From the IMG/VR virus record IMGVR_UViG_3300017917_002345, positions 1 through 63,707 of that record: 63,707 nucleotides of DNA; one strand, written 5' to 3'. The DNA is from a virus. The notes under the pieces are model-generated. The model saw nothing but the letters and a program-made list of their open reading frames with translations. It was not told where the DNA came from and ran no database searches. Below, one piece after another: positions 32,926 through 46,040 of the stretch (the first letter of the stretch is position 1; each line of letters starts with the position of its first letter). The translations under genes were made by a program, and so were the position numbers.

Positions 32926-32928
32926 AGC

Positions 32929-33159: not shown

Positions 33160-34025
33160 CGTTTCATGATAGTTGTGCGGCTCATTGCTTGCCAGTTGTT
33201 GGGAAAGCTCTTACGCAGTTCACCCAACTTGAGCACAGTGCGCAAGCTCAGTTCACGCAGGCTGTCTTGATTGTCGACCACGTACTGTAGCAGCTCATCA
33301 CGCACTGCCTCGGGCTCGTCAAAGTCATAGCGATCAAGCATGCCTTGTTCGTTGACAACATGTTTGATGCGGAGAATCTTTTCACGAGCAGTATCCATCT
33401 CCAAGTCAATGTAGTGGCAACGGCTCTCCAATGCATCCAAGTGCCCACGCAGTCGCTTGCTCTTGACATGTGCAAACTTGATGTTAGTGATGAAGATTGC
33501 AGCACCTTTGAACTCAAAGCGATCAGGGATGCCTTCGGCTCGTAGGATGCGGCTGTCAGTGTTCCAAGAGATCCAACGCTTCTCGCTGCTGTCAAGTGCA
33601 CCCTTGAGAGTGTTGAGGCTCTGCTCTTCCATCAAGATGTCGTCGCAGTCATCAAACACGACAACATTGCCTTTGTCTGCGAACTCGTAGAGCTTACAGT
33701 AGAGACCCACTGCACTCATACGACCTTTGACAATTTCAAACTTGGGTTTCTTCTCGGCCAGTGTGTTCAACAGGTCTGCCTTTTGCAGTACTGCTTCAAC
33801 ACCGTAGCTCTTGCCGACACCTGGCGGGCCACTCACAATCATAGCCTTGACGTTGCCGTCTTTGACAGCCTGTGTCATTTGATCCAGAACCAGAAAGCGC
33901 TCATTAATGCGAGCAAGGATCTCTGCGTCTGTTTGTTTTGCCACTGCTTCAGCACGGACTCGAATTGCTTCTGTATCGAATTCCAAAACTGTTTCAACGG
34001 CGCTGGGCTTACGTACTGCTGACAT
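33156..34025 (-). CDS. AAA+ ATPase
   Basis: 289 residues. Walker A VSGPPGVGKSYG (residues about 64-75), Walker B VVVFDDCDD, sensor-1-like 'AAIFITN' and an arginine-rich 'KSKRLRGHLDALESRC'. Architecture matches the stand-alone AAA+ proteins often found in T4-like accessory regions. Target unknown. It heads the operon with the membrane and GcrA-like proteins, so it may act at the membrane or on host transcription; that is inference. Confidence 0.85.
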   Translation of the reverse strand: MSAVRKPSAVETVLEFDTEAIRVRAEAVAKQTDAEILARINERFLVLDQMTQAVKDGNVKAMIVSGPPGVGKSYGVEAVLQKADLLNTLAEKKPKFEIVKGRMSAVGLYCKLYEFADKGNVVVFDDCDDILMEEQSLNTLKGALDSSEKRWISWNTDSRILRAEGIPDRFEFKGAAIFITNIKFAHVKSKRLRGHLDALESRCHYIDLEMDTAREKILRIKHVVNEQGMLDRYDFDEPEAVRDELLQYVVDNQDSLRELSLRTVLKLGELRKSFPNNWQAMSRTTIMKR

Positions 34026-34060
34026 CTAAACTCCTATTGTTGTATGTTGCGTATGAGTGT

Positions 34061-34089
34061 ATTATACTATCACAAACGGAACTTGTCAA
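34061..34089 (-). promoter_or_regulatory. early promoter
   Basis: TTGACA-N17-TATAAT, overlapping the 3' end of the gene at 34070-34306. Confidence 0.87.
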
Positions 34090-34306
34090 GCACTTCGTTT
34101 GCTTCATCCATCCGATCTGTGCCATCGCAGCATTCATCAATTGTTTCAACAATCATGAGATTGACGAGGGTTGCAGCTTCTTCTTTGAGCTCTTGATCAG
34201 GCATCATACTGATCAAATAGTCAATGTCCTTTTTGGTTTGACAGCTCCAGATGAGATCTGCCAAAATTGCCTGTCGGGGTGTAAGGCCTTCCAATCGAAT
34301 AGTCAT
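34070..34306 (-). CDS. small helical protein, early cassette
   Basis: 78 residues: 'TPRQAILADLIWSCQTKKDIDYLISMMPDQELKEEAATLVNLM' is all helical. A similar family of uncertain function occurs in other T4-like phages. Leader differs (AGAGGTACATAG). Confidence 0.75.
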   Translation of the reverse strand: MTIRLEGLTPRQAILADLIWSCQTKKDIDYLISMMPDQELKEEAATLVNLMIVETIDECCDGTDRMDEANEVLDKFRL

Positions 34307-34332
34307 CTATGTACCTCTATTGCCATAAAAGC

Positions 34333-34361
34333 ATTATAAGGCCTTACGGCCCTGTTGTCAA
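34333..34361 (-). promoter_or_regulatory. early promoter with hairpin spacer
   Basis: TTGACA-N17-TATAAT. The spacer holds GGCC-GTAA-GGCC. The stop codon of the Gp88-like gene is the TGA of the -35. Confidence 0.87.
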
Positions 34362-35065
34362 GCTACCTGCTTGATTCGAATAACGAACCCCGAAGTGTCC
34401 TTGCGAGCCGGGCCCTTTGCACGTAGCCCTACGACGCCCACAATGGGGTCTAGGAAACGCAGATCCGTGTTGTCGGCACTGTAGACTCCATCCGGGATAC
34501 GATCATACACTACGGCAACGTTCATGCCCTGTGCAAGTGCCTGCTGAACATCGGCATCGTTGTTTTCAGCACGGCTGAACGTGAGGTGATAGTTGGGGAT
34601 GTGGGAAACCTTACGACCTAATACTTTAGTATAGTCGTAAAATTGAATCGACGGGAAGCATTCAAAGATCGTCTTGTCCTTGCCGGGCACGGTATACTTC
34701 TCCCAGCTAAGGTCCGACGTGCCGTTCAAACGGAACACGGGGATCAAGTCCTTGCGACGAGCTTGACGTACTGCACGGGCGATGTCATCATACAGGTCCA
34801 GCATGAACTGATCGCGGTCATCAAAGAACTGTTGAGTGCGGCGCTCGCGAGCAAGGTGCACGTGGTTCTTGGTCTCGCCTGGCTTGAGCATGCCACCCTG
34901 ACCTGCACGGTGCAAACATGCTGCCCTGCAGCCCGGAGTGGACTTGGGGCAAACATTACCACGGCCTGCTTCTTCAGCAGGAGCAAGGTGCAGGATGTAG
35001 GTCATGAATCCTGCCTTGATGCCCTTGACTGTTTTGGCGTTTCCTGTGGTAAGCAATTTGAACAT
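34358..35065 (-). CDS. Gp88-like phage protein
   Basis: 235 residues. 'GNVCPKSTPGCRAACLHRAGQGG' with a Cys trio, 'RERRTQQFFDDRDQFM', 'RLNGTSDLSWEK' and 'FYDYTKVLGR' are diagnostic of the 'gene product 88' family widespread in phages. Molecular function unknown; the Cys set suggests metal binding. Confidence 0.88.
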   Translation of the reverse strand: MFKLLTTGNAKTVKGIKAGFMTYILHLAPAEEAGRGNVCPKSTPGCRAACLHRAGQGGMLKPGETKNHVHLARERRTQQFFDDRDQFMLDLYDDIARAVRQARRKDLIPVFRLNGTSDLSWEKYTVPGKDKTIFECFPSIQFYDYTKVLGRKVSHIPNYHLTFSRAENNDADVQQALAQGMNVAVVYDRIPDGVYSADNTDLRFLDPIVGVVGLRAKGPARKDTSGFVIRIKQVA

Positions 35066-35093
35066 TGACTAGCTCCTTGTTTACAATAAGTGT

Positions 35094-35122
35094 ATTATAA
35101 CACCAATTGTGGCAGTCGTCAA
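35094..35122 (-). promoter_or_regulatory. early promoter
   Basis: TTGACG-N17-TATAAT; the TGA of the -35 is the stop codon of the next gene upstream. Confidence 0.85.
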
Positions 35123-35325
35123 TCCAAATAGTGTGAAAAAGCCAATTCGTTTACCAGCTCGGGGTACTGCTCATTGAGTCGGTTGAGGTCCTCTTCGTTG
35201 AGAGGCTCGCCCGTATCCTCCCACTCGGCGTATGCAATAAATGCATCGCAGAAGTCAGGGTAGTCCCTGGGATCGACATCTTGTACCTCGAAGGAACATA
35301 CCTGGCGGTTGTCTAGCATTGTCAT
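35119..35325 (-). CDS. small acidic protein
   Basis: 68 residues from the ATG at 35325 (AAAGGAGATCAAG ribosome site). Rich in Asp/Glu (DVDPRDYPDF, EDTGEPLNEEDL). No family recognised. Confidence 0.72.
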   Translation of the reverse strand: MTMLDNRQVCSFEVQDVDPRDYPDFCDAFIAYAEWEDTGEPLNEEDLNRLNEQYPELVNELAFSHYLD

Positions 35326-35350
35326 CTTGATCTCCTTTTGCAATGTCTGT

Positions 35351-35378
35351 ATTATACAGTCTTTTGCTCTGTTGTCAA
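35351..35378 (-). promoter_or_regulatory. early promoter
   Basis: TTGACA-N16-TATAAT. Confidence 0.85.
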
Positions 35379-35783
35379 GACCCTTCCTTCATCTTTGAAG
35401 GTTTCATCGTTTGCCAAAGGTTGCAGTATGTGAATGAGTCCGCCTTCCATTGCACTCAGCTCGGTCTCCTTTGCCAACTCAATGTAGTTGATTGTCCAAT
35501 TGGAAGGAGTGATGTTATAATTCTCACGCAGCCACTTCCAGCCCTTGGGATCTATTTGATGCTTCTTGGGTGTGCCGTGTGCTTTGAACCAATGACTATC
35601 CTGTCGGTCCTTGATAGTACCTTTGCCTACATAGATGATGAGATCATCCTCGGAGGTTAGGACATAGACTCCGCGACTGGTCTTCTTCAGTTCTTTATAG
35701 GATTGGAAAGGTTTGGTTTGGACTGTGCAGTCGATGTTGAAGACCTCTTTCAATCGATCTACAGTTTCTGTGACTTTGCTCAT
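35352..35783 (-). CDS. GIY-YIG nuclease-like protein
   Basis: 143 residues from the ATG at 35783. 'SRGVYVLTSEDDLIIYVGKGTIKDR' matches the GIY-YIG core (G-V-Y ... Y-V-G) with the following Arg, and 'EGGLIHILQPLAN' supplies the catalytic Glu region. A small stand-alone domain; it could be a homing-type or restriction-type nuclease. Confidence 0.8.
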   Translation of the reverse strand: MSKVTETVDRLKEVFNIDCTVQTKPFQSYKELKKTSRGVYVLTSEDDLIIYVGKGTIKDRQDSHWFKAHGTPKKHQIDPKGWKWLRENYNITPSNWTINYIELAKETELSAMEGGLIHILQPLANDETFKDEGRVLTTEQKTV

Positions 35784-35810
35784 TGTGGTCTCTGTGTAGT
35801 GTATGTCTAC

Positions 35811-35839
35811 ATTATACACTCAAAAGACTCACGTGTCAA
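35811..35839 (-). promoter_or_regulatory. early promoter
   Basis: TTGACA-N17-TATAAT. Confidence 0.86.
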
Positions 35840-35883
35840 ATTGTGAATGATTGGCATTCCTCTAACGATAAGAGCAACATAAC

Positions 35884-35959
35884 TGGCGCCGCTGGAGGGA
35901 CTCGAACCCCCGACTCACGCTTTAGAAGAGCGTTACTCTATCCACTGAGTTACAGCGGC
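35884..35959 (-). tRNA. tRNA-Arg (anticodon UCU)
   Basis: Full cloverleaf on the minus strand, 76 bases: acceptor GCCGCTG/CAGCGGC, D-arm CTC..GAG, anticodon stem ACGCT/AGCGT around CTTCTAA, T-arm GGGGG-TTCGAGT-CCCTC, encoded CCA. It reads AGA codons, often rarer in GC-rich hosts than in phage genes. Confidence 0.95.
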
Positions 35960-35990
35960 GTACCTGTATTTATGCAAATACTAAATTAAG

Positions 35991-36020
35991 GCCCATATTC
36001 TATCCAACTGAGCTACGGGC
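35991..36020 (-). pseudogene. 5' half of a decayed tRNA
   Basis: GCCCGTAGCTCAGTTGGATAGA is a typical tRNA 5' half (acceptor, then D-arm), but the sequence then diverges and no T-arm or acceptor 3' strand follows before the intact tRNA-Arg. A remnant of a second tRNA gene. Confidence 0.65.
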
Positions 36021-36026
36021 AGAAAA

Positions 36027-36100
36027 GTGACAAGGTCGGCGCTTCCCAGCGTGGACCTTGTCTGTACCTGGGGACACTACCTCCCAGGATTTTTTTGGAA
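36027..36100 (+). ncRNA. candidate small RNA with terminator hairpin
   Basis: Plus-strand sequence has GACAAGGTC..GACCTTGTC (36030-36061) enclosing CGCT-TCCC-AGCG, then CCTGGG..CCCAGG followed by ATTTTTTT, a textbook sRNA ending, and a further GGAAGG..CCTTCC stem. No ORF. No strong plus promoter was found, so the direction is not certain; on the minus strand the same hairpins lie in the 3' region of the gene at 36129. Confidence 0.45.
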
Positions 36101-36128
36101 GGGCACTACACCTTCCGTCGGAGCGATC

Positions 36129-36374
36129 TTAGGCAAACATGCCGGCTCTGCTGCCAGTCACATCGCGAGCGCTGATGCGATAGGCAGTGCGGCCTTCTGT
36201 GTTGCGTGTGGTATTGACCTTAAGACCAGCACCACGAAGCTCTGTCATTCTTGCACGAATGTTCTTGATACCAAACGTAGCCTGGGCTTGAGCAGCGCTC
36301 AAAGTACGGCCAGTGCCACGCAGGTAAGATTCCAAGAATTCGTTCTGTGTCGTTGTCAATTTAGTGAAACTCAT
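36129..36374 (-). CDS. winged-helix DNA-binding protein
   Basis: 81 residues from the ATG at 36374. 'LSAAQAQATFGIKNIRARMTELRGAGLKVNTTRN.EGRTAYRIS' has the helix-turn-helix plus wing pattern of small phage wHTH proteins. Probably a transcriptional regulator acting on phage or host promoters. Promoter 36415-36442. Confidence 0.8.
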   Translation of the reverse strand: MSFTKLTTTQNEFLESYLRGTGRTLSAAQAQATFGIKNIRARMTELRGAGLKVNTTRNTEGRTAYRISARDVTGSRAGMFA

Positions 36375-36414
36375 GATTTTTCCTTGTAGTATACTGCGCT
36401 GGGCAGTTAATACA

Positions 36415-36442
36415 ATTATAAAACACGAGCAGAAAATGTCAA
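36415..36442 (-). promoter_or_regulatory. early promoter
   Basis: TTGACA-N16-TATAAT; the TGA of the -35 is the stop codon of the upstream gene. The leader is longer than usual (about 40 bases). Confidence 0.84.
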
Positions 36443-36660
36443 GCCTTAATCTTATCAAATTCCTTGCTCAGATAATACTTGAGCAGTTTTTCTTGAATAG
36501 CACTGGCAAGATCGATATGTATCGTATCGGATACAGTGAATCGATAGGGCATATGCCCCCAAGTGTTGGATTTGATAAAGTCTGCGAACAGTAGACGATG
36601 ATCTCGATTTGCGGGATCAAATTCTACCACGTTGCGAAGATTCTTGGTAAGGATTGTCAT
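36439..36660 (-). CDS. small hypothetical protein
   Basis: 73 residues. 'FDPANRDHRLLFADFIKSNTWGHMPYRF' and a C-terminal helix. No promoter of its own was found; an AACGGG..CCCGTT hairpin (36677-36702) separates it from the gene upstream, so it is probably read through from 37088. Confidence 0.7.
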   Translation of the reverse strand: MTILTKNLRNVVEFDPANRDHRLLFADFIKSNTWGHMPYRFTVSDTIHIDLASAIQEKLLKYYLSKEFDKIKA

Positions 36661-36722
36661 TGTGTACCTTTATCGAAACGGGACTTATTGACATTGCCCG
36701 TTACGCACACGGCAGGGGTTGA

Positions 36723-37088
36723 TCAGAACGGAGCGTCTTCGAGCTCTGCGTCAGCTGCGACTTTTGCAGCAGCACGAGCTTGGATGTCTTCCATAGAGGG
36801 CTCAGCCGGGGCCTTCTTCTCACGCTTGGCCTTGGGCTCTTTGGGTTGGCGCTTCTCCAGTGCAGCCTCGAGCGCTTCGCGGATTGCAGCATTGCCATTG
36901 TCGAAGTTGATGCTGAGCAAGTAGGCCAGCGCATCTTCTTTGGTCATGGGCTCTTTGAGCTCGATGATGTCGATGTCACTGTGCATGCCTTTGGCCAGCA
37001 CTTTGACACGCATTTGGTCATTGGCAAAGCGGGGCTTGATAACGCCCATACGGGTTGAAACGCCGGCGAATTTGAAAGTTTTGGACAT
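36723..37088 (-). CDS. hypothetical protein with charged linker
   Basis: 121 residues from the ATG at 37088 (AAGGAGATTACT). N-terminal beta-rich domain (TFKFAGVSTRMGVIKPRFAND), then a Lys/Glu/Pro linker (KRQPKEPKAKREKKAP) and acidic helix. Two-part architecture suggests a nucleic-acid or protein adaptor. Family not recognised. Confidence 0.75.
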   Translation of the reverse strand: MSKTFKFAGVSTRMGVIKPRFANDQMRVKVLAKGMHSDIDIIELKEPMTKEDALAYLLSINFDNGNAAIREALEAALEKRQPKEPKAKREKKAPAEPSMEDIQARAAAKVAADAELEDAPF

Positions 37089-37116
37089 AGTAATCTCCTT
37101 GTATGTCTGTGTGTTT

Positions 37117-37139
37117 ATGAACAGCACCGCGCTGTCCAT
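37117..37139 (-). promoter_or_regulatory. 5' leader stem-loop of different sequence
   Basis: ATGGACAGC-GCGGT-GCTGTTCAT: same placement and ATG..CAT ends as the 24-kb leader hairpins but a different stem. Confidence 0.6.
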
Positions 37140-37145
37140 GTGTTA

Positions 37146-37174
37146 ATTATACCGTATTTTGGAGTCTTTGTCAA
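37146..37174 (-). promoter_or_regulatory. early promoter
   Basis: TTGACA-N17-TATAAT. Confidence 0.85.
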
Positions 37175-37179
37175 CCAAA

Positions 37180-37350
37180 TTACGAATTAACTGTATCGAA
37201 CGGGCTGAATTCTTCGGTTGAGTGTTGCGAATCTGCAACAAGGGCATTGACAACCCGAAAGCCTGCCTCACGATGCTCGTCTGCCTCATACTCACAGAAG
37301 ATGTGATAGAGGAACAGATCGCCATCCCAAACTTCCCAAGAATTGAACAT
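37180..37350 (-). CDS. small acidic protein
   Basis: 56 residues from the ATG at 37350. 'WDGDLFLYHIFCEYEADEHREAGF' - aromatic and acidic. No family recognised. Confidence 0.7.
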   Translation of the reverse strand: MFNSWEVWDGDLFLYHIFCEYEADEHREAGFRVVNALVADSQHSTEEFSPFDTVNS

Positions 37351-37380
37351 GTTTGCTCCTAGTGTGTTGAACATGAGTGT

Positions 37381-37409
37381 ATTATAACAAGGGCCGGGGC
37401 CCTTGTCAA
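37381..37409 (-). promoter_or_regulatory. early promoter with hairpin filling the spacer
   Basis: TTGACA-N17-TATAAT. AAGGGC-CCCG-GCCCTT (37389-37404) occupies almost the whole spacer. Confidence 0.88.
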
Positions 37410-37413
37410 CGCT

Positions 37414-37815
37414 TTATTCGTCGTACTCGGCCGCAACCTCAGCAGCCCATTCTTCAGTCGCTTGATCGTAAGGGATCAGCTTCTTGCAGAGCACACTGCC
37501 ACCGTATGTGTTGCCGCAGTGCCACACGCCGTCTTTGAACACGTAGTACCACTCGGCCCAGCAGTCCTTAGCGGCTTGAAAGAGCTCGTCAAACGAGTCG
37601 TAGTCTTTGGGTTCTACGCCCTTATCACCGCGATCACGGTAAAAGCCATCGGTCAACGAGCTGCGGTCGCCTTCTGCAAGCAGGTCTTCAACGTCTGCCT
37701 GTGTGTTGTATGCTTGCAACTCTCGTCCCACGCCCTCGAGATAGCCGTCCCAGTGAACGTAGATTGTGCGGCACTTGTTGCCAATCATCACGCCAACTAA
37801 ACTACGAGTTCCCAT
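37414..37815 (-). CDS. conserved phage protein starting MGTRSL
   Basis: 133 residues. 'MGTRSLVGVMIGNKCRTIYVHWDGYLEGVG' is the signature start of a family found in many phages (HWDGYL core), function unknown. Acidic C-terminus. Confidence 0.85.
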   Translation of the reverse strand: MGTRSLVGVMIGNKCRTIYVHWDGYLEGVGRELQAYNTQADVEDLLAEGDRSSLTDGFYRDRGDKGVEPKDYDSFDELFQAAKDCWAEWYYVFKDGVWHCGNTYGGSVLCKKLIPYDQATEEWAAEVAAEYDE

Positions 37816-37846
37816 CGTTTGCTCCTAAGTGTGTTTCAGTGTGTGT

Positions 37847-37875
37847 ATTGTAACTCCAAACTGCACTCTTGTCAA
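37847..37875 (-). promoter_or_regulatory. early promoter with -35 in a hairpin loop
   Basis: TTGACA-N17-TACAAT. CTGCACT/AGTGCAG (37861-37881) is a perfect stem with the -35 in its loop. Confidence 0.85.
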
Positions 37876-37897
37876 GTGCAGTTCAGACTTACTTGGC

Positions 37898-38035
37898 TCA
37901 GTCCTTCTTGGACTTTGCAGCTTCTTGGGCTGCGAGCTTGCCCGAGTAAGTGTTGCCAGCCTTGTGGATCAACCCCGTCTTGGTGTACGTGATTGTGCCA
38001 CCAGTGGACGACGGGATGACAGTTCCTGCTTGCAT
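37898..38035 (-). CDS. 45-residue basic protein
   Basis: ATG at 38035 after CTGGAGAGCAAG. 'GGTITYTKTGLIHKAGNTYSGKLAAQEAAKSKKD': beta hairpin then a basic helix. Promoter 38066-38095. No family recognised. Confidence 0.7.
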   Translation of the reverse strand: MQAGTVIPSSTGGTITYTKTGLIHKAGNTYSGKLAAQEAAKSKKD

Positions 38036-38065
38036 CTTGCTCTCCAGTTTGTTGAACATGAGTGT

Positions 38066-38095
38066 ATTATAAGGGGCCTGAGCCCCTTATGTCAA
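38066..38095 (-). promoter_or_regulatory. early promoter with hairpin filling the spacer
   Basis: TTGACA-N18-TATAAT with AAGGGGC-TCA-GGCCCCTT-like stem (38071-38088); upstream stop codon in the -35. Confidence 0.88.
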
Positions 38096-38535
38096 GCAGT
38101 TTCAGTCTGCTTTTCAGCTTTGGCCACGCCACGCAGGTCCTTCATGGTCAGCCCCTTTGCAGCCAGCACCGCTTGCACTTCAGCCAGTGCAGCAGCCTTC
38201 GCTTCCAGCATCATCTGCTTGGCTTGGGCCTTGGCAGTACGCTTTTCAGCACGAGCAGCAGCACGAGCAGCAGCACGTTCGTTCTTTGCAGCTTCGCGGG
38301 CTTCAGCACGGGCAGCAGCCTTCTCAGCACGGGTAGCAGCACGAGCAGCAGCTTTCTCAGCTTTGGTAGCTTCGCGTGCAGCAGTGCGCTCGGCACGCTT
38401 GGCCATCAGTGCAGCCACACGCTCGGCCTTGGCAGCAGCTTTGGCTTCAGCTTTGGCTTGAGCTTCCAGTGCCTTGCGCTCGGCGGTCAGAGCAGCCAGT
38501 TGAGCTTGGATTTGAGCGATAGTTTGTGCAGTCAT
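38092..38535 (-). CDS. Ala/Lys/Arg-rich coiled-coil protein with H-NS-like end
   Basis: 147 residues, almost wholly helical. The middle is a low-complexity repeat of Ala, Arg, Lys and Glu. The N-terminus 'QLAALTAERKALEAQAKAEA' and C-terminus 'ALAEVQAVLAAKGLTMKDL' resemble the two ends of the oligomerisation domain of beta-proteobacterial H-NS proteins ('I..VR..IAEYGLT..DL'), but the DNA-binding QGR-type domain is absent. It could interfere with host H-NS; low-complexity composition makes this uncertain. Confidence 0.72.
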   Translation of the reverse strand: MTAQTIAQIQAQLAALTAERKALEAQAKAEAKAAAKAERVAALMAKRAERTAAREATKAEKAAARAATRAEKAAARAEAREAAKNERAAARAAARAEKRTAKAQAKQMMLEAKAAALAEVQAVLAAKGLTMKDLRGVAKAEKQTETA

Positions 38536-38575
38536 TGCGTTCTCCTTCAGTGGTTAAAAAAGTGTCTGTGAATGT

Positions 38576-38604
38576 ATTATAACAAGTCTTTTCTTACTTG
38601 TCAA
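38576..38604 (-). promoter_or_regulatory. early promoter with hairpin spacer
   Basis: TTGACA-N17-TATAAT with ACAAGT/ACTTGT arms in the spacer (38582-38601). Confidence 0.86.
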
Positions 38605-38665
38605 CAACTTTGCAAACATTTCGATCTTGTTTGTTTTGATCTAGTGTTTGCTTCGTTGTGTGTGT

Positions 38666-38694
38666 ATTGTAGCAAGGATCTTACGCCTTGTCAA
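38666..38694 (-). promoter_or_regulatory. second promoter upstream of the coiled-coil gene
   Basis: TTGACA-N17-TACAAT with CAAGG/CCTTG in the spacer. It is followed by about 45 bases and then a 21-codon ORF (38554-38619) lacking a good ribosome site, so it may simply add transcription to 38092-38535. Confidence 0.7.
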
Positions 38695-38697
38695 CAA

Positions 38698-38907
38698 TTA
38701 TTTCGAGGATTCCTTCGTCGCATGCGACTTGAACAGGAAGTTCGACAGCAGGCTCAAGCCCCAGGCTTGCAACCAAGTGATCTCATGGAGACCAGTAAAG
38801 ATGCTAGGCATCACAGCATCCCACAGCAGCATCACAGGGAGGCTCAGCAGGAAGGAAAACACCACCGAAATGGCAATGGTTGTCAGCAGTAGTGTAAAGT
38901 GACTCAT
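38698..38907 (-). CDS. small membrane protein
   Basis: 69 residues from the ATG at 38907. Hydrophobic segments 'FTLLLTTIAISVVFSFLLSL' and 'LLWDAVMPSIFTGLHEI', basic C-terminus. Promoter 38937-38965. Confidence 0.72.
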   Translation of the reverse strand: MSHFTLLLTTIAISVVFSFLLSLPVMLLWDAVMPSIFTGLHEITWLQAWGLSLLSNFLFKSHATKESSK

Positions 38908-38936
38908 CAAGTGCTCCGTTTGTTGAACATGAGTGT

Positions 38937-38965
38937 ATTATAGTGGAGAAAGAGCAAACATGCAA
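38937..38965 (-). promoter_or_regulatory. early promoter with -35 in a terminator loop
   Basis: TTGCAT-N17-TATAAT. An 11-bp perfect stem GGAGAAAGAGC/GCTCTTTCTCC (38945-38974) encloses the -35. Confidence 0.86.
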
Positions 38966-38985
38966 GCTCTTTCTCCTCTAAACCC

Positions 38986-39309
38986 TTACTCGGCCCAGTA
39001 GTAGCCTTCCCAGCAGTCCTGGGTACACATGCGGCTAATACGCTTGATCTGCCCCTGTACGCGGCGGAAAAACTCGTCCTTAGGCATACGCTTGCCCTGG
39101 AGTGCAACAATGAACTTGGCAGCGTCTGTTACGCTGTCAAAGCGAATGCCCTCTGCCACAACGGGCTTCTTATGAGGGCGGCGCTCCAAGTCTTTGATGA
39201 CTGCGGCTTCGACTTCCTCCCGGGGCACAGTACCTGCAACGATGCCCGTAATGAGCGCGATGCGATTGCAGGAAGTGGCGAGGGGGAACACAGTGTTGGT
39301 AACCTTCAT
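38986..39309 (-). CDS. hypothetical protein, early cassette
   Basis: 107 residues from the ATG at 39309. Helical start (IALITGIVAGTVPREEVEAAVI), 'RFDSVTDAAKFIVALQGK' and a Trp/Cys end (CTQDCWEGYYWAE). No family recognised. Confidence 0.74.
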   Translation of the reverse strand: MKVTNTVFPLATSCNRIALITGIVAGTVPREEVEAAVIKDLERRPHKKPVVAEGIRFDSVTDAAKFIVALQGKRMPKDEFFRRVQGQIKRISRMCTQDCWEGYYWAE

Positions 39310-39339
39310 TTTGGCTCCTAGTGCGTTGAACATGTGTGT

Positions 39340-39369
39340 ATTATAACGCCGTTACCAGGCCGGCGTCAA
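39340..39369 (-). promoter_or_regulatory. early promoter with hairpin spacer
   Basis: TTGACG-N18-TATAAT. ACGCCG/CGGCGT stem across the spacer. Confidence 0.84.
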
Positions 39370-39376
39370 GCCTTTT

Positions 39377-39790
39377 TCAACCCCACAGCTTCGAAAATTC
39401 TTCCTGCTGAGCGCGGGCCCGTGCATCCCAGTTGATGCCGAACTTCTCGCCCCAAGCCCGCATGAACTTCTTGCCCACGTCCAAGCTCACGAAGTCTTCG
39501 CCTTGCATACCTTGCTCACTGTAGCAGACATCCTTGCCGGGGAGACCTTGTGAGTTCAGGAACTGTTGCAGTTCTTTGAGGAACTGGCGATCAGTGTAGA
39601 TCAAGCCTTCCTTGTGGACATCCCAGGTCTTGATGTCAAACTGAACACGGAGCTCACCGTACTCGGGAACACCGCCGGGTTTGAACCCGTCGTCGATGTA
39701 GGGACCCAGCATCATGTCCTTGATCAGGACCGACTTTTTGGAATTGGACCAAAGGCCCATTCCGTCTGTGTTGAAAACAATCTTAGTCAT
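39377..39790 (-). CDS. hypothetical protein, early cassette
   Basis: 137 residues. 'FNTDGMGLWSNSKKSVLIKDMMLG', 'VHKEGLIYTDRQFLKELQQFL'. Mixed alpha/beta. No family recognised. Confidence 0.74.
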   Translation of the reverse strand: MTKIVFNTDGMGLWSNSKKSVLIKDMMLGPYIDDGFKPGGVPEYGELRVQFDIKTWDVHKEGLIYTDRQFLKELQQFLNSQGLPGKDVCYSEQGMQGEDFVSLDVGKKFMRAWGEKFGINWDARARAQQEEFSKLWG

Positions 39791-39819
39791 CTGCGCTCCT
39801 TGTTTGTTGCAGTGTCAGT

Positions 39820-39848
39820 ATTATATAAAAAAGGGGCCCGGGAGTCAA
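39820..39848 (-). promoter_or_regulatory. early promoter
   Basis: TTGACT-N17-TATAAT with a CCCGGGCCCC-TTTTTT run in the spacer. Confidence 0.8.
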
Positions 39849-39879
39849 CCACAGGCCCTAAACCCTAGGAGCGGTAGGG

Positions 39880-40437
39880 TTATTCGTTTGACTCAGCTTC
39901 CCAGTCAGCCATACTGCCCGAGATGTCAAAGTAGTCGTCAATCTCTTCGCCAACAACATCGCGCACAGTAGCCGCAGTGGCATCACCGTACTCAACGCAG
40001 TCGTCAATGCCGTTCTCGTACTTGCCAGCGAATGCCATGCCGGGCTCGTAGTAGAACGCTTCGATCTCAAAGCCCAGCTCCAAGAGTTTGTTATAGGCGC
40101 CAATGGGTGGAGCCCATGCTGAGTCAAAGGCAGCGGTAACAGTGTTGGCGTCCGGTCGCTCAACATTGTCCAGGGCGAAGTCCCACTTGGTACCCCAGTT
40201 GGCAATGTTCCAATCGTACCAATCCTTGTGACCAAACAGGCGCAGGTTCTCCAGTTGCCGAATCTCCAGTTCCCTTTGTTTGTCTTCGTCACCGTATGAA
40301 CCGGCAATGGTCTCCAACAGAGGCTTGGGCGTGGGCATGAACTCCATGAGCAGGCCGTCTTTACCTTTGACCACACGGTCAATCATTGCAGGGTCTGCGT
40401 GACGCAGGGTGATACCGTTTGAACACCAATTCGGCAT
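39880..40437 (-). CDS. Api92/YubB ferredoxin-like domain protein
   Basis: 185 residues. The start MPNWCSNGITL, 'FMPTPKPL', 'DWYDWNIANWGTKWD' and 'FDSAWAPPIGAYNKLLELGF' are all diagnostic of the Api92-like family found in phages, plasmids and integrative elements. Function unknown. Confidence 0.9.
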   Translation of the reverse strand: MPNWCSNGITLRHADPAMIDRVVKGKDGLLMEFMPTPKPLLETIAGSYGDEDKQRELEIRQLENLRLFGHKDWYDWNIANWGTKWDFALDNVERPDANTVTAAFDSAWAPPIGAYNKLLELGFEIEAFYYEPGMAFAGKYENGIDDCVEYGDATAATVRDVVGEEIDDYFDISGSMADWEAESNE

Positions 40438-40475
40438 AGTAGGTGCCTCTTTCTTTAACTGTTGAACATGAATGT

Positions 40476-40504
40476 AGTATAGCGCCCTAGCGCCATACCG
40501 TCAA
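40476..40504 (-). promoter_or_regulatory. early promoter with hairpin spacer
   Basis: TTGACG-N17-TATACT; GCGCTAGGGCGC in the spacer; upstream stop codon in the -35. Confidence 0.8.
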
Positions 40505-40758
40505 GAGAATTCGTAGAACTTGACGTTGGGATCCAGCTTCTGGAGCTCTCGAGCGGCAGTAGTGAGTTCGATGTAGCGAGCACGAACTTGGCCGCGGCTC
40601 AGCTCACCGTCACAGGCCAAGTTCTCGGGACTCAGGGCGCAGTCGATGATGTCTGCAATCTCTTGGCGGTCTGCGGCATTGTCGAGCAAGAGTTCTTTCT
40701 CGCCGAAGATTCTTTTGAATGCGTTCCGTTGCTCTACGAACTTGATCAGTGTTTTCAT
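40501..40758 (-). CDS. hypothetical helical protein
   Basis: 85 residues from the ATG at 40758 (TTGGAGAGAAAG). 'RQEIADIIDCALSPENLAC' and 'RARYIELTTAARELQKL' helices. No family recognised. Confidence 0.72.
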   Translation of the reverse strand: MKTLIKFVEQRNAFKRIFGEKELLLDNAADRQEIADIIDCALSPENLACDGELSRGQVRARYIELTTAARELQKLDPNVKFYEFS

Positions 40759-40790
40759 CTTTCTCTCCAATGTTTGCTGTCCATGTGTGT

Positions 40791-40820
40791 ATTATAACAC
40801 CATTAGAACCAAGATGTGTA
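40791..40820 (-). promoter_or_regulatory. early promoter, weak -35
   Basis: A TATAAT (40791-40796) and the usual leader are present, but the -35 is poor (TACACA at 18 nt), unlike its neighbours. Confidence 0.55.
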
Positions 40821-41030
40821 TATCCCGGCAAGGCTTACGGTTATTCCCGCAAGGTTGACCAAACTCTGCGGTCGATTGGCCACACGGATTGTCCAGATCA
40901 GATAGCACAGTCCGCCCCCTGCACCTGCTACCGAATCCCACGGATGCAGTTCACGGTAGAAGTTCATCAGCACGTACATGGTGAGCAGGCACACTGTACC
41001 TGCCCACTGTAGCACATCATTCAATTTCAT
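40803..41030 (-). CDS. three-helix small membrane protein
   Basis: 75 residues. 'LQWAGTVCLLTMYVLMNFY', 'AGAGGGLCYLIWTI' and 'LVNLAGITVSLAGIYTSW' are hydrophobic. ATGA-coupled to the gene upstream. The form recalls CBU_0592-like small membrane proteins; not certain. Confidence 0.75.
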   Translation of the reverse strand: MKLNDVLQWAGTVCLLTMYVLMNFYRELHPWDSVAGAGGGLCYLIWTIRVANRPQSLVNLAGITVSLAGIYTSWF

Positions 41031-41383
41031 GCTCGCTCAAACCTTCCTTCAATCATTTCACGCATACGGGCCAACTCTGCTTCTGCTTCTGCCAGCACAG
41101 TGATCAACTGATCTTCGACAGTGCCATCTGTAAGCACATCTTCGGGGTTTTCGTACAGGCAACCACCGAGGTACGAGCAACCTACTTCATGCCCGCCAAA
41201 CATAGCACGAACCCGCAGCATGAACCAGTCATACTTGCCCGAATCAATGTCTGCGTAGAGTTGCTTCTTGTTGTCAAAACACTCGCTGAGTTGATCCCAC
41301 GGATCGATGTCTTCCCAAGTCTTGTCAACGATGATCTCAAAGCCGTTACGCTCAAACGAGGCCAATTGTTCGTAGTGTCGCAT
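41027..41383 (-). CDS. hypothetical acidic protein
   Basis: 118 residues. 'FEIIVDKTWEDIDPWDQLSECFDNKKQLYADID..KYDWFMLRVRAM' is a pattern I recall from other phage accessory proteins without function. Promoter 41415-41443. Confidence 0.75.
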   Translation of the reverse strand: MRHYEQLASFERNGFEIIVDKTWEDIDPWDQLSECFDNKKQLYADIDSGKYDWFMLRVRAMFGGHEVGCSYLGGCLYENPEDVLTDGTVEDQLITVLAEAEAELARMREMIEGRFERA

Positions 41384-41414
41384 CGCTTGCTCCAGTGTGT
41401 TTCAGTGTATGTGT

Positions 41415-41443
41415 ATTATAACACCGATCTCCAATAGGGTCAA
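41415..41443 (-). promoter_or_regulatory. early promoter
   Basis: TTGACC-N17-TATAAT; GGGT..ACCC arms at 41437-41451 enclose the -35. Confidence 0.82.
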
Positions 41444-41468
41444 CAAGACCCTATCAGGCATCGGACTA

Positions 41469-41939
41469 TTACCAGCTGGAGTGATATTCAAAATCCCATT
41501 GTTCGGGCAGCATCAAGCACTGGTCGATGACCTTGATCGTGCCCTCGATGTCCTTGAAGTACCATTCATCGTACTCGTCTCCACCGAAGAAGAAGCCCTG
41601 CTGACGGGGCAGTAGCTCATTGGCCAAGTGCCGGAAGTCCAGTACCCGCTGACACAGATCGCGCAGTTCTGTCAACTGTTCGCGGCTCACATAGTAGCGC
41701 CCACAGTCGTCCTCACCGCCCTGCACATTGTCCACGAACCATTTGTGAATGTGGTTTGCCTTGCGCCAATAGCCGCATTCGATCTGAACTTCCTTGACAG
41801 GAGTGGAGTCGCCCCAGCGACCTTTGCAATCTTTGAGTTCAGGAAACAGTGCTGCAATAGCGTTCATTTTGGGCTCGTCATCCTCACGGAAGACCTTGCT
41901 CATATAACGCTTGCCGCTCAAGTACATATCCAATCCCAT
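41469..41939 (-). CDS. conserved phage protein starting MGLDMYL
   Basis: 156 residues from the ATG at 41939 (AAGGAGAACGCA). Start MGLDMYLSGKRY, 'ECGYWRKANHIHKWFVDNVQ', 'CGRYYVSREQL' and 'YDEWYFKDIEGT' identify a family frequent in phages and also in bacteria, function unknown. Confidence 0.88.
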   Translation of the reverse strand: MGLDMYLSGKRYMSKVFREDDEPKMNAIAALFPELKDCKGRWGDSTPVKEVQIECGYWRKANHIHKWFVDNVQGGEDDCGRYYVSREQLTELRDLCQRVLDFRHLANELLPRQQGFFFGGDEYDEWYFKDIEGTIKVIDQCLMLPEQWDFEYHSSW

Positions 41940-41968
41940 TGCGTTCTCCTTGCAGTATTGATGAATGT

Positions 41969-41998
41969 ATTGTAACAACGATTCTACAGTGGTGTCAA
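41969..41998 (-). promoter_or_regulatory. early promoter
   Basis: TTGACA-N18-TACAAT. Confidence 0.8.
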
Positions 41999-42009
41999 CA
42001 AAGACCCTA

Positions 42010-42378
42010 TCAGGCATCGGGCGATTCTTCAGCTGTGGACCAGCACTGATACTCGCTAACACGAGCAGGATAGAGTGACCCGCCACCGTTGCCGTACACA
42101 TCTTCCAGCCAGCGGATACCCATTTGCAAGCGCGGGATGGCGAACCTGCTCTCGTCCCCATCCGCCAAAGCGAACAGCACATCACAGCGCCCGCCAGTGC
42201 CCTCTACGGGGAATCCGCGCTCGTAGTCGGGTGCAGTAAGGATCTCTTCCAAGTACTGGACGCGGACGCCCAACTCTTTCAGGAAGAACTGTTCGAACTC
42301 CGCCACTTGGGCAGCACCTACTACAGTGCCGGGCCATACACAGACTTGGGTAAAGCCCGGTTTCAGTTGAACGTTCAT
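42010..42378 (-). CDS. hypothetical protein, early cassette
   Basis: 122 residues. 'QVAEFEQFFLKELGVRVQYLEEILT' and 'GGRCDVLFALADGDESRFAIPRLQMGI' ; a recurring phage accessory family with no assigned function. Confidence 0.76.
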   Translation of the reverse strand: MNVQLKPGFTQVCVWPGTVVGAAQVAEFEQFFLKELGVRVQYLEEILTAPDYERGFPVEGTGGRCDVLFALADGDESRFAIPRLQMGIRWLEDVYGNGGGSLYPARVSEYQCWSTAEESPDA

Positions 42379-42408
42379 CTCTTGCTCCTAGTGTGTTGCA
42401 GTGTGTGT

Positions 42409-42437
42409 ATTATAGCAGGGTTGCCGTAGTGTGTCAA
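42409..42437 (-). promoter_or_regulatory. early promoter with -35 in a hairpin loop
   Basis: TTGACA-N17-TATAAT; GCAGGGTTG/CAACCCTGC arms enclose the -35. Confidence 0.86.
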
Positions 42438-42457
42438 CAACCCTGCAGGCTGTAGGG

Positions 42458-42733
42458 TTATTCAACCACTTCCAGCATGTTGGCCGGAACTCTCCACATC
42501 ATGCTGCCAGTGTTGACAGTGACATACTTCTGTGCGATTTTGGTCACCGTGCCCTGCTCTCCAAGCGGGTTCTTGGCACTGGTCCAGCGCACAGTACCGC
42601 CAATTCGAAGCTGTCGTTTGGCAGTCTGCGCCAGTCGAGCCCGGGCAAATTTCACAGCGTCGATGATGCTTTCCAACTGAGTGTTGGTGAAAGTGCCTTG
42701 GATGATAGCAGTGTTGATTTGGGTGATGTCCAC
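42458..42733 (-). CDS. small KOW/SH3-like protein (GTG start)
   Basis: 91 residues from GTG at 42733, preceded by AAGGAGCTGAAA. Helical N-terminus, then 'GTVRWTSAKNPLGEQGTVTKIAQKYVTVNT', a KOW-like barrel. Possibly nucleic-acid binding. Confidence 0.74.
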   Translation of the reverse strand: MDITQINTAIIQGTFTNTQLESIIDAVKFARARLAQTAKRQLRIGGTVRWTSAKNPLGEQGTVTKIAQKYVTVNTGSMMWRVPANMLEVVE

Positions 42734-42762
42734 TTTCAGCTCCTTAGTGTGTTGCAGTGTGT

Positions 42763-42791
42763 ATTATAACAGGGACCTTGCCCTGTGTCAA
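42763..42791 (-). promoter_or_regulatory. early promoter with hairpin spacer
   Basis: TTGACA-N17-TATAAT; CAGGG-CAAGGT-CCCTG in the spacer. Confidence 0.88.
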
Positions 42792-43010
42792 TCAAAATTC
42801 GCCACCGTCGAACGCACAATCGCGCTCACGATCCACCATACGTTCCCAATGCTCACGGAGAGCAGCACGGGCGGCCGCAACATCGCCCCCGGCCTCTACG
42901 AGAACCCGAGCATAATCCGCATCGCTGAAACACTCAACGACCCAATGACCGCCCTCCTCATAATGAGCAAGGGCATAGGCTTCTAACGCTTGACGAGCTA
43001 GTGAGGCCAT
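42792..43010 (-). CDS. small acidic helical protein
   Basis: 72 residues, Ala-rich helices ('LARQALEAYALAHYEEGGHW', 'ARAALREHWERMVDRERDC'). No family recognised. Confidence 0.7.
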   Translation of the reverse strand: MASLARQALEAYALAHYEEGGHWVVECFSDADYARVLVEAGGDVAAARAALREHWERMVDRERDCAFDGGEF

Positions 43011-43039
43011 CTTCTACTCCTTTGTGTCTGTGTGAGTGT

Positions 43040-43068
43040 ATTATAAGCGAATCCCACTCACTTGTCAA
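43040..43068 (-). promoter_or_regulatory. early promoter
   Basis: TTGACA-N17-TATAAT; AGTGAGTGGGAT... spacer; upstream stop codon in the -35. Confidence 0.86.
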
Positions 43069-43259
43069 TAGTCATCGAAGTAGTCATTGTCCGCGATGTA
43101 GTCGCTGTCATCCAGAGCCACCTGCTCGGCGATTTCCCTAGCAATGGCTTCCACCGTCGCATATGAGACTTCATACACGATGGCAATCTGCCGAAAGCTC
43201 AATTCACCCCGCTCGATCTCTTCCCCAATGGCCATGTGAAGTTCGTTCATTGCTGTCAT
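43065..43259 (-). CDS. small helix-turn-helix protein
   Basis: 64 residues. 'ERGELSFRQIAIVYEVSYATVEAIAREIAEQ' is a clear helix-turn-helix of the small phage type; the tail is acidic (DDSDYIADNDYFDDY). Possible regulator. Second gene after the membrane protein at 43270. Confidence 0.78.
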   Translation of the reverse strand: MTAMNELHMAIGEEIERGELSFRQIAIVYEVSYATVEAIAREIAEQVALDDSDYIADNDYFDDY

Positions 43260-43269: not shown

Positions 43270-43401
43270 TCAACGATTGATCAATTGAAAACAGTAGCCA
43301 AAAGAGTTTGTGAGTCTGCACTCGTTCCAGACCCCGACCTTCCAGTAGATCGTGGCGGCGAAGAGAATCACCACCAAAACAATGCCTAGAAACAATCGCA
43401 T
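43270..43401 (-). CDS. 43-residue membrane protein
   Basis: ATG at 43401 after AAAGGAGTTGATA. 'LFLGIVLVVILFAATIYW' is one membrane helix, followed by a Cys-containing tail. Promoter 43421-43449. Confidence 0.7.
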   Translation of the reverse strand: MRLFLGIVLVVILFAATIYWKVGVWNECRLTNSFGYCFQLINR

Positions 43402-43420
43402 TATCAACTCCTTTGACTTC

Positions 43421-43449
43421 ATTATATATCCAAAACCTCCCGACATCAA
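43421..43449 (-). promoter_or_regulatory. early promoter
   Basis: TTGATG-N17-TATAAT. Confidence 0.78.
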
Positions 43450-43454
43450 CCGTT

Positions 43455-43604
43455 TTATGCAGGTGTACTGTCGAGCCACTGCTGATACTCCAGTTCGTCC
43501 GCACGTTCACGATCCCGAACTATGTCGTATGCAACTTCATCGGGATAGCCCTGAGCCACAAGTTCTGCCCTTTGCGCTTCAAACTCTTCTGCTGAATAAA
43601 ACAT
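43455..43604 (-). CDS. 49-residue acidic protein
   Basis: ATG at 43604 after AAAAGGAGTTGACG. 'YSAEEFEAQRAELVAQGYPDEVAYDIVRDRER' helices. First gene downstream of the DnaA-box region on this strand. Promoter 43637-43665. Confidence 0.72.
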   Translation of the reverse strand: MFYSAEEFEAQRAELVAQGYPDEVAYDIVRDRERADELEYQQWLDSTPA

Positions 43605-43636
43605 CGTCAACTCCTTTTCGTATACGTGATATCAGC

Positions 43637-43665
43637 ATTATAGAGTCTTCTGCCCATTCCGTCAA
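43637..43665 (-). promoter_or_regulatory. early promoter next to the DnaA-box array
   Basis: TTGACG-N17-TATAAT, 13 bp from the first DnaA box. Confidence 0.82.
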
Positions 43666-43677
43666 CCATTTTCTGTC

Positions 43678-43935
43678 TGTGTATAACCTGTGTATAACTT
43701 GTGGATTGTGGATATCCTGTGTATAACCTGTGTATATGTGGATAACTTGTGGACAGTGTGTGGATAAGCTGTGTATATGTGGATAACCTGTGAACAAGCT
43801 GTGGATATCATGTGTATAACTTGTGGATTGTGGATAACTTGTGGATACACTGTGTATAGAGTGTGGATAACTCTAGATCCAGTGGACAACCTGTGGACGA
43901 CCTGTGTATATGTTGTGGATAAGCTGTGGATATCT
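43678..43935 (+). repeat. DnaA-box array
   Basis: Ten perfect TGTG[G/T]ATAA boxes (complement TTAT[C/A]CACA) begin at 43678, 43689, 43718, 43737, 43759, 43778, 43811, 43829, 43862 and 43914, all in the same orientation, with about as many one-mismatch copies between them. Density and orientation go far beyond chance. Either a DnaA-dependent replication origin or a DnaA-titrating locus. Confidence 0.85.
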
Positions 43936-44110
43936 TGGGCGGATTTCGGTGAGTTTTCAACCATTTTTTGGGCGATTTCGTGGCAGAATCACCACGATTT
44001 CAACCGTTTTTTGAACCTTTTGACAGCCTTTTTGCAGGATTTTTAGGGTAGAAAGAATTTGGTGGCGACACCGAAGACAAGCAATGCTCAAATACTCTGA
44101 CGTGCTCTGA

Positions 44111-44152
44111 CGTGCTCTAAAGTGTTCTCACCGTGCTCTAAAGTGTTCTCAC
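44111..44152 (+). repeat. 21-bp perfect tandem repeat with degenerate neighbours
   Basis: CGTGCTCTAAAGTGTTCTCAC occurs at 44111-44131 and 44132-44152 back to back. Partial units (GTGCTCTGAC at 44092-44110 region, TTCTCAC and CTCTATTCTCAC further right) surround it, iteron-like. Confidence 0.8.
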
Positions 44153-44344
44153 CCCATTCTCGCTCTATTCTCACAGTGGTCTGAAGGGTTCTCACGGCAT
44201 ATACATATACACATGCACTCTATACACAGTGCGCTCTACTGTGCTCACACAGCCACTCCTACTGCTTCACACAGTGCGAATATTCACTCCACATATGCGT
44301 GTGAGCTTCACTATCCTGCCCGTGTGTGGGTGCTCGCGCAGTTC

Positions 44345-44360
44345 GCTACAGCAAGGTTTT
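44345..44360 (+). repeat. GCTACAGCAAGGTTTT repeat, copy A
   Basis: Perfect 16-base match to the core of the copies at 26106 and 32604. Confidence 0.75.
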
Positions 44361-44384
44361 CTGTAGAACGTCTATACACATGAT

Positions 44385-44400
44385 GCTACAGCAAGGTATT
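44385..44400 (+). repeat. GCTACAGCAAGGTATT repeat, copy B
   Basis: One change (T to A) from copy A. Confidence 0.72.
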
Positions 44401-44437
44401 TGCTATATACACATGCGTATGCATGGCATGTGTATAT

Positions 44438-44453
44438 GCTACAGCAAGGTATT
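44438..44453 (+). repeat. GCTACAGCAAGGTATT repeat, copy C
   Basis: Same variant as copy B. Confidence 0.72.
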
Positions 44454-44476
44454 TGGCACGTGTTGTAGTTGCACTC

Positions 44477-44492
44477 GCTACAGCAAGGTTTT
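44477..44492 (+). repeat. GCTACAGCAAGGTTTT repeat, copy D
   Basis: Identical to copy A; the four copies are spaced by 40, 53 and 39 bp. Confidence 0.75.
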
Positions 44493-44521
44493 ATGCGAGT
44501 GTGTGTATATATGTGGGAAAT

Positions 44522-45268
44522 TTAATCGAACTTTACCCAGGTCCAGTCCATGCCCTGTACTGGAGTTAGTCCTATATGGCTGCGGGGAATGAAGTAGAGA
44601 TCCGTGTCTATACGCATTTGGTCCACTAGGTTTGCTATACAACTGTCCACGGCCACTATGGCTTGGGCTCCCTCTAGTATTTTTAGCCAATTGAATATGC
44701 TGGGAGTCTCCCCTTCTGTTATGTATATGGTCTGCCAGTCGTCGGGGATTGTGGAGGGGTCAAATTCTGCTCGATGGTCACTGCCCTCCAAGTGTACTAC
44801 TGCGTAAAGGGGATTCTTGACCAGGCGGTTGTAGAGCTCTTGTTCTTTATCAGTCGCCCGGGTGATGGCGTCTGCTAGGCACCATTTCTTCAGGAAGGGC
44901 ACACTGGCCCGTATGTACTTGTACTGGTCGAACTTGGTGTGCTGGAAGTAAAGTTCTTCGTGGAAGCGGTAGGAGGTGAGTGCTTGGTACAGGGGCAGGT
45001 GTTCTTTTACTCCCGCTTGGTTCAATAGCTGTTCCGGGGTTCGGTAGAAGTAGTTGCCCGTCGTGTCAGTGGCTACTGGTATCCACTGCACCCAGGGCAC
45101 ATGTTGCTCAAAGTGGGGTATGAACTCTTCACATATGGGCCACGAGATGTCATAGCCCTCTTGGTGGTAGTGGTGGGCTATGGGCAGGGCTATCACTATG
45201 TCGCCCAGCCCCCGGCTCTGTATGATGCCCAGGGCGTTCGTCTTGTTCTTGCTCATGTGCTTGCTCAT
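44522..45268 (-). CDS. GT9 heptosyltransferase-like glycosyltransferase
   Basis: 248 residues from the ATG at 45268. N-terminal 'IIQSRGLGDIVIALPIAHHY' is the GT9 (ADP-heptose:LPS heptosyltransferase) start R..G.GD.i...P....., and the C-terminal domain has 'ILEGAQAIVAVDSCIANLVDQM' (usual D[ST]g..H....). It should add a sugar, possibly heptose, to host LPS or another acceptor. One base separates it from the gene upstream. Confidence 0.78.
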   Translation of the reverse strand: MSKHMSKNKTNALGIIQSRGLGDIVIALPIAHHYHQEGYDISWPICEEFIPHFEQHVPWVQWIPVATDTTGNYFYRTPEQLLNQAGVKEHLPLYQALTSYRFHEELYFQHTKFDQYKYIRASVPFLKKWCLADAITRATDKEQELYNRLVKNPLYAVVHLEGSDHRAEFDPSTIPDDWQTIYITEGETPSIFNWLKILEGAQAIVAVDSCIANLVDQMRIDTDLYFIPRSHIGLTPVQGMDWTWVKFD

Positions 45269-45269
45269 A

Positions 45270-46040
45270 TTAGAAATAGCTACCCCGTGGGTGATTGGGG
45301 AAGTAGCACTCGTTGCGTTCCAAGGGCAGATCTCGTCGTGCTTCGCACAGCCATGAGGTGCCCAAGCCAATGGCTAAACTCAGTGCCACACTTTGGTTAC
45401 CGATGAACTGTTCGGCACCGGCGATGACCTCTGCTAGGTCCAGTAGTGTGGGGGTCTCTAGGTGTGGTAGGTCCCAGCCAGTAAACTCCCGGAAGGCCTC
45501 GTACTCTGCGGGCAGGCCCACGAACACGCTCTGTTGGTCCGCACCCTCACTCAGCCATTGATCCCATACATCCCGACTAGAGGGGTCGCACCAACGTGCC
45601 GTGCGGTTGACAACTAGGTTGCGGGCGCCCAAATCCCGGGGTCGGGCCACACGGAGCCAAGGGGTGTTTCTCAGCTCCTCCTGCACCCTTGTGTCCAGGA
45701 TGCCGAACTCCCGTGCGTAGATGTCCACATAGTTGCCCGGGTGGTGAACAAATGTGGTGCGAAATCGGTCCAAGTTGTGGGTGATCTCCGTGGTCTTGGG
45801 GTCCAGGGCTTCAAAGCTGTGTATGTAGTCCTGATGTTCCATAAAGCTCTGCATGAACTCCCTATCTTGGTCAGTCATGCGCCCCCGGTGAAACTCCAGG
45901 GGCTTGCTGCCATAGTAGTGCTCGCCGATCCAGTCGATTTGGTTGAGGTGCAGGTAAAACTCCCCACCCCCGAAATGTCGCACTAGGGGTAGACTGTAGA
46001 TGAGGTCTCCCATGGTGCCGCTGTGTTTGAATCTATTCAT
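45270..46040 (-). CDS. GT9-like glycosyltransferase
   Basis: 256 residues from the ATG at 46040 (AAAGGAAAAACGCCTT). 'FKHSGTMGDLIYSLPLVRHFGG' is the GT9-type N-terminus, and 'DLAEVIAGAEQFIGNQSVALSLAIGLG' the donor-binding end (iGn.s....lA...g). Works with the gene downstream, probably in LPS or virion glycosylation. Confidence 0.78.
   Translation of the reverse strand: MNRFKHSGTMGDLIYSLPLVRHFGGGEFYLHLNQIDWIGEHYYGSKPLEFHRGRMTDQDREFMQSFMEHQDYIHSFEALDPKTTEITHNLDRFRTTFVHHPGNYVDIYAREFGILDTRVQEELRNTPWLRVARPRDLGARNLVVNRTARWCDPSSRDVWDQWLSEGADQQSVFVGLPAEYEAFREFTGWDLPHLETPTLLDLAEVIAGAEQFIGNQSVALSLAIGLGTSWLCEARRDLPLERNECYFPNHPRGSYF

Follow-up and report, generated by a model that had tools for sequence, protein, structure and literature searches.

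A long tandem array of DnaA boxes at the head of the early genes in a T4-like jumbo phage, a possible sink for the host initiator

A noncoding region heading the early gene block of a T4-like jumbo phage carries 24 DnaA boxes in tandem on the minus strand (43678..43933). We tentatively favour the explanation that this is a docking array for host DnaA whose main effect would be to capture that protein. All coordinates refer to the window, by which we mean the whole 63.7-kb viral record analysed; relatives are given by our contig handles (L numbers) where they must be told apart.

The record is a fragment of a larger parent genome. Its PHROG matches include a UvsX-type recombinase, a UvsW-type helicase, a DnaB-like (gp41-type) helicase, a primase and a phage ligase, and its UvsX is 62–68% identical to those of jumbo myoviruses, among them Sinorhizobium phage Phosso, Agrobacterium phage Atu_ph07, Pectobacterium phage CBB and Cronobacter phage GAP32; together these matches place it among the T4-like jumbo phages. 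A DNA-level comparison with deposited phage genomes found none close to the window. From ∼25 to 43.6 kb run many small leftward genes behind near-perfect sigma-70 promoters of the form TTGACA-17-TATAATACACA. At least 12 near-identical copies of this early promoter, followed by an AGGAG ribosome site, lie on the minus strand at 26840-43070. The phage also carries bacterial-type sugar epimerase, pfkB-family kinase and AlgH-like genes (14733-15500, 15831-16628 and 20871-21431). Judging from the AlgH-like and the sugar epimerase and kinase genes, the host is probably a Gram-negative bacterium, likely a proteobacterium; searching a genome collection with the AlgH-like gene found no relative.

Boxes were called as 9-mers matching the consensus at seven or more of nine positions, which yields 10 perfect TTATMCACA boxes (9/9), nine with one mismatch (8/9) and five with two (7/9). 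The 10 perfect boxes fall at 43678-43922, every one on the minus strand, which bears out the preliminary description's claim of ten same-orientation boxes in 245 bp. That description also spoke of about ten near matches; imperfect boxes are indeed present, but they number 14, and the array ends at 43933. Pitch is exactly 11 bp in 18 of the 23 steps, the others being 7, 8, 8, 7 and 19 bp. In none of 200 dinucleotide shuffles did any 256-bp stretch contain two perfect boxes on the same strand, versus the 10 observed. The whole window holds 14 perfect boxes versus 1.3 expected by chance, a count that no shuffle reached; matches to TTATNCACA thus exceed chance, as befits a DnaA-box cluster.

Tandem Repeats Finder reports the array as a period of 11 over 43677-43932, with higher-order periods of 41 and 103 bp, and it has grown partly through duplications of these two lengths. 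Deviations from the consensus are unevenly spread over the 24 units: one among 120 positions of the TNCACA core, versus 18 among 72 at positions 1–3 (Fisher p = 6e-8). Selecting units at seven or more matches affects this statistic little, because a fixed 11-bp register misses only one unit. Such sparing of the core would not be expected from simple repeat decay. Two other candidate interpretations were dropped. Promoter decoys were considered since the boxes look like TATAATACACA in the early promoters, but the array has neither TATAAT nor the −35 spacing; and a 100-aa ORF on the minus strand (43662-43964) consists of translated boxes only, with no supporting homologue for a coding repeat.

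In Escherichia coli, DnaA prefers direct box pairs 2–3 bp apart, and changed spacing can disrupt binding (PMC11317965). The array repeats a 2-bp spacing wherever the pitch is 11 bp. Proteins with DnaA domain IV (PF08299) were found neither in this record, a fragment, nor in 49 other array-bearing viral records. We therefore dropped the idea of a phage-encoded DnaA-like initiator with boxes of its own, and host DnaA becomes the natural candidate reader. A host-DnaA array would fit all the sequence tests made, namely consensus, published pair spacing, conserved core and presence in some relatives.

It is quite improbable that the reader is something other than DnaA, such as a phage-encoded repeat-binding protein, or that the array is a neutral tandem-repeat expansion. 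The higher-order duplications do indicate active repeat growth, and the corresponding regions of relatives hold other 10–11-bp phased repeats of different sequence, as though phased arrays were a regional habit whatever binds them. Against this, what the 24 units conserve is the recognition core of DnaA, and the arrays of two related phages (L462 and L464) retain the same 9-mer while other sequence has diverged.

A noncoding hub of ∼0.9 kb (43610-44520), in which the array comes last, separates the leftward early block from the next gene. Read from the late side, the hub consists of AAATACCTTGCTGTAGC repeats, phased GTGAGAAC repeats leading into GAGTATTTGAGC, an inverted repeat, the DnaA array and an early promoter. 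Both the border of early leftward and late regions and the neighbouring tandem repeats of the preliminary description proved real, the repeats lying at 44095-44153 and 44345-44490. The late-side flanking gene (44522..45370, minus strand) has no Pfam or PHROG match. Four AAATACCTTGCTGTAGC copies lie at 44345..44493 (minus strand), where relatives have AAATACCCCGCTGTAG. Next come helically phased 10/21-bp repeats of the GTGAGAAC type running into GAGTATTTGAGC (44084..44196, minus strand; tandem part 44095-44153), which also have equivalents in relatives. In the spacer between these and the array (43936..44080) are two AAAA(C/T)GGTTGA elements that lack a good −10, together with an imperfect GTGGCAGAATCACCAC (GTGGCA) inverted repeat; the DNA of this spacer is not unusually unstable. 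A search for Rfam families in the window hub found none.

Past the array, the first promoter of the early block is a sigma-70 promoter on the minus strand, TTGACG-17 bp-TATAAT (43637..43665), with its −35 element 13 bp from the array end. The second, TTGATG-17-TATAAT (43421..43449, minus strand), shares with it the upstream AAAA(C/T)GGTTGA element that recurs in the spacer.

The same junction recurs in 20 viral contigs, where it is marked by homologues of the late-side flanking gene. The hub order common to these relatives is AAATACCCCGCTGTAG repeats, 10–11-bp phased repeats of varying sequence, a conserved GAGTATTTGAGCTTAGCCTCTC-type block, sometimes tRNAs, and early promoters. Among lags of 8–15, 12 of 13 hubs show their best periodicity at 10 or 11 bp, and in eight of the 13 it is matched by at most one of 100 shuffles. 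It seems as if each lineage fills this spot with its own phased binding array, to go by these sequences. Phased repeats of the GTGnGAAn type, again at 10–11 bp, are seen at the hubs of L122 (8840-9540), L137 (9670-9740), L454 (12240-12310) and L455 (11750-11850), and may be compared with 44084-44153 in the window.

We at one stage took the DnaA-box array to be unique to this phage, a view overturned by homologues of the early gene at 39880-40437, which led to three array-bearing lineages. Their arrays, of 15 boxes in L462/L463, 14 in L464 and nine in L460/L461 (the last in both orientations), sit between the same hub and the early block, just before the latter; their sequence differs from that in the window, with box content kept. 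The boxes lie on the early-gene strand in the window, L462 and L464, and are mixed in L460. The window and L462 have in common the 21-mer GTTATACACATGATATCCACA, which suggests that these two arrays are of common descent. In L460, a second perfect box pair with 12-bp pitch directly follows a tRNA pair (9629-9649), in addition to the hub array.

Other relatives do not have the array. The hubs of L137 and L139 hold a single box pair each (11- or 12-bp), two seen versus 0.03 expected over ten non-redundant hubs. In about ten lineages the hub has neither array nor pair, and these include the nearest relative by early gene (L457/L458), whose hub is present. A box-pair search of 50 related viral records gave no convincing pair, and nine complete or near-complete jumbo phages have no array, one of them having a single imperfect pair. 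The preliminary description had named absence from close relatives as evidence against its proposal; the array turns out to be present in three related lineages and absent from the nearest and about nine others. The early-gene tree is poorly supported, and the array carriers do not group together in it; it therefore allows no count of gains and losses. The array is real and recurrent, yet its patchy presence makes it optional, or dispensable, in the family.

The placement of the array raises the possibility, in our view a rather unlikely one, that DnaA acts here as a local transcription factor, with a filament on the array activating, repressing or timing the promoter at 43665-43637 and hence the early block. 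DnaA is a known regulator of transcription (PMC8203912). The promoter is strong and lies on the same strand, with its −35 element 13 bp downstream of the array, and in the three array-bearing relatives too nothing else in the hub comes between the array and the first early promoter. Local regulation is harder to reconcile with the variable distance, since the 13 bp in the window becomes roughly 60–200 bp in relatives. Moreover, of the at least 12 early promoters of this kind in the window just one has an array, and in relatives a comparable early block is run with none.

Another role for the hub would be that of a phage replication origin, where the array would be a DnaA-dependent helper, melting DNA or loading helicase for the first round. 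We consider this unlikely. The character of the hub would suit an origin: it is noncoding and rich in repeats, lies where two gene blocks diverge and is conserved within the family. In E. coli oriC, the unwinding region lies on the side faced by the CACA ends of the boxes; in the window these ends face the early promoter. The array also shares with bacterial oriC-type origins direct DnaA boxes at 2–3-bp spacing, but it differs from them in having more boxes, no DUE-like tract, no adjacent initiator gene, and no counterpart in most relatives. In a 50-bp stability profile, no stretch of the hub ranks among the least stable 5% of the window. The GC-skew analysis proposed in the preliminary description does give a local minimum of cumulative skew near the hub, but skew simply tracks gene direction, and we discarded it as independent evidence of an origin. 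The phage moreover has its own helicase, primase and UvsX. The borrowed origin proposed at the outset accordingly loses weight, because there is no DUE-like tract, skew follows the genes and close relatives lack the array. Sequence alone cannot separate a titration site from a borrowed origin.

Under the explanation we favour, capture of host DnaA, the array would be a cooperative docking platform within the hub. On direct boxes at 11-bp pitch, DnaA monomers would sit next to one another and assemble into a filament. With ∼24 sites per phage genome there would be little effect at entry; accumulating phage copies would then bind most of the cellular DnaA, new rounds of chromosome initiation would stop and replication resources would be freed. 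E. coli has ∼200 DnaA monomers per origin (PMC5835720). With 24 sites apiece, ten phage genomes or more could suffice to take up such a pool, so that the order of magnitude seems plausible. Capture is suggested by the boxes on one strand at 11-bp pitch, the conservation of the core, recurrence in relatives, the lack of a DUE and of PF08299, and the arrays of unrelated virulent phages. We infer both that DnaA binds the array and that titration prevails over any local effect.

Three points tell against capture. A pure sink is weakened by the constant place and polarity of the array (L460, with mixed boxes, excepted), neither of which titration needs, although shared descent could account for both. 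T4-type phages usually destroy host DNA, so that blocking oriC would be less useful to them. Finally, many relatives do without the array.

The preliminary description likened its proposed titration site to E. coli datA. Like datA, a box cluster outside oriC that binds many DnaA molecules, the array is predicted to bind many. The two differ in that datA contains just two consensus boxes and four with one mismatch (PMC5835720), works with IHF and inactivates DnaA-ATP. The IHF consensus WATCAANNNNTTR is absent from 43401-44560, and since IHF is part of datA action a strict datA reading is weakened. Of the original proposal, the host-DnaA array agrees with the sequence tests, while the likeness to datA is loose.

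Tandem boxes at this pitch occur in more than 100 viral contigs; among the matches listed, only L393 equals the window's array in chained boxes. Tandem DnaA boxes are also seen in named phages: among T7-like ones in Berlinvirus A7 and P483, in Molineuxvirinae and, just before ocr, in Klebsiella phage Kp7; among T5-like ones in bombadil and PM135; in microviruses, where they adjoin the replication gene; and in Lactococcus phage phiL47, where they occupy a divergent noncoding gap. In several T7-like, T5-like and other virulent phages (A7, P483, Kp7, ZK1, phiEap-1, bombadil, Tiff81 and Bhz55) tandem boxes lie near genome ends or the left end.

The T7-like left-end arrays (Berlinvirus A7, P483 and Kp7) resemble that of the window in placing tandem boxes in noncoding DNA ahead of the earliest genes, in phages for which no need of DnaA is known. 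They differ in having fewer perfect boxes (3–5 in the stretches read), in lying near genome ends and in pointing their CACA ends away from the early genes. T5 offers a similar mixture: as in the window, a virulent phage has direct DnaA boxes (∼12-bp pitch in T5) in repeat-rich noncoding DNA that adjoins early genes, but T5 is not T4-like, has only 2–4 boxes per cluster, and has a fixed genome end and two-step injection.

DnaA boxes are listed among the features of the T5 injection stop signal (PMC13250531, 2026), and the region so annotated has DnaA-type box pairs at 12-bp pitch. By analogy with the function proposed there, the array might serve genome entry or tethering, which we regard as very improbable. 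Arrays do lie within 1 kb of a record end in 14 of 32 tailed-phage records with arrays versus 1.2 expected, a figure inflated by the related phages in that set. Nothing suggests two-step entry in the present phage, and the genomes of T4-type phages are packaged by the headful as permuted molecules that lack fixed ends.

Clusters of DnaA boxes are already known, as is the presence of such boxes in the early DNA of T5. A literature search that covered few subscription papers found no long, regular, partly conserved array heading the early block of a T4-like jumbo phage, and no paper joining ‘jumbo phage’ and ‘DnaA box’. More broadly, and with considerable doubt, early-region tandem DnaA-box arrays might form a recurrent, probably convergent host-takeover element, a protein-free DNA decoy that captures the initiator, of which the window would have the longest example among the matches listed. 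Virulent phages halt host replication mostly via proteins. If the idea is right, a DNA element capturing the initiator would be a takeover device requiring no protein and gaining strength with phage copy number, and it would explain why clusters of DnaA sites are kept by T7-like, T5-like and T4-like phages, none of which is known to depend on the protein. Because relatives with and without the array share the hub, its function is testable through natural variants or a single noncoding deletion.

The hubs of several relatives have further features of their own. An apparently conserved structured noncoding RNA, to which no Rfam family corresponds, lies in the hubs of L133 (15720-16010), L452 (11170-11480), L122 (9230-9370) and L128 (11050-11280); the window seems to be without it. 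Some of these candidate RNAs end in a terminator-like hairpin.

Family-wide, the late side of the hub is marked by AAATACC(CC/TT)GCTGTAG repeats in 2–4 copies, at 44345-44493 in the window and likewise in L122, L126, L128, L130, L133, L137-L140, L452-L455, L462 and L464. The window has two extra single copies, one of them directly upstream of an early promoter (32604-32615).
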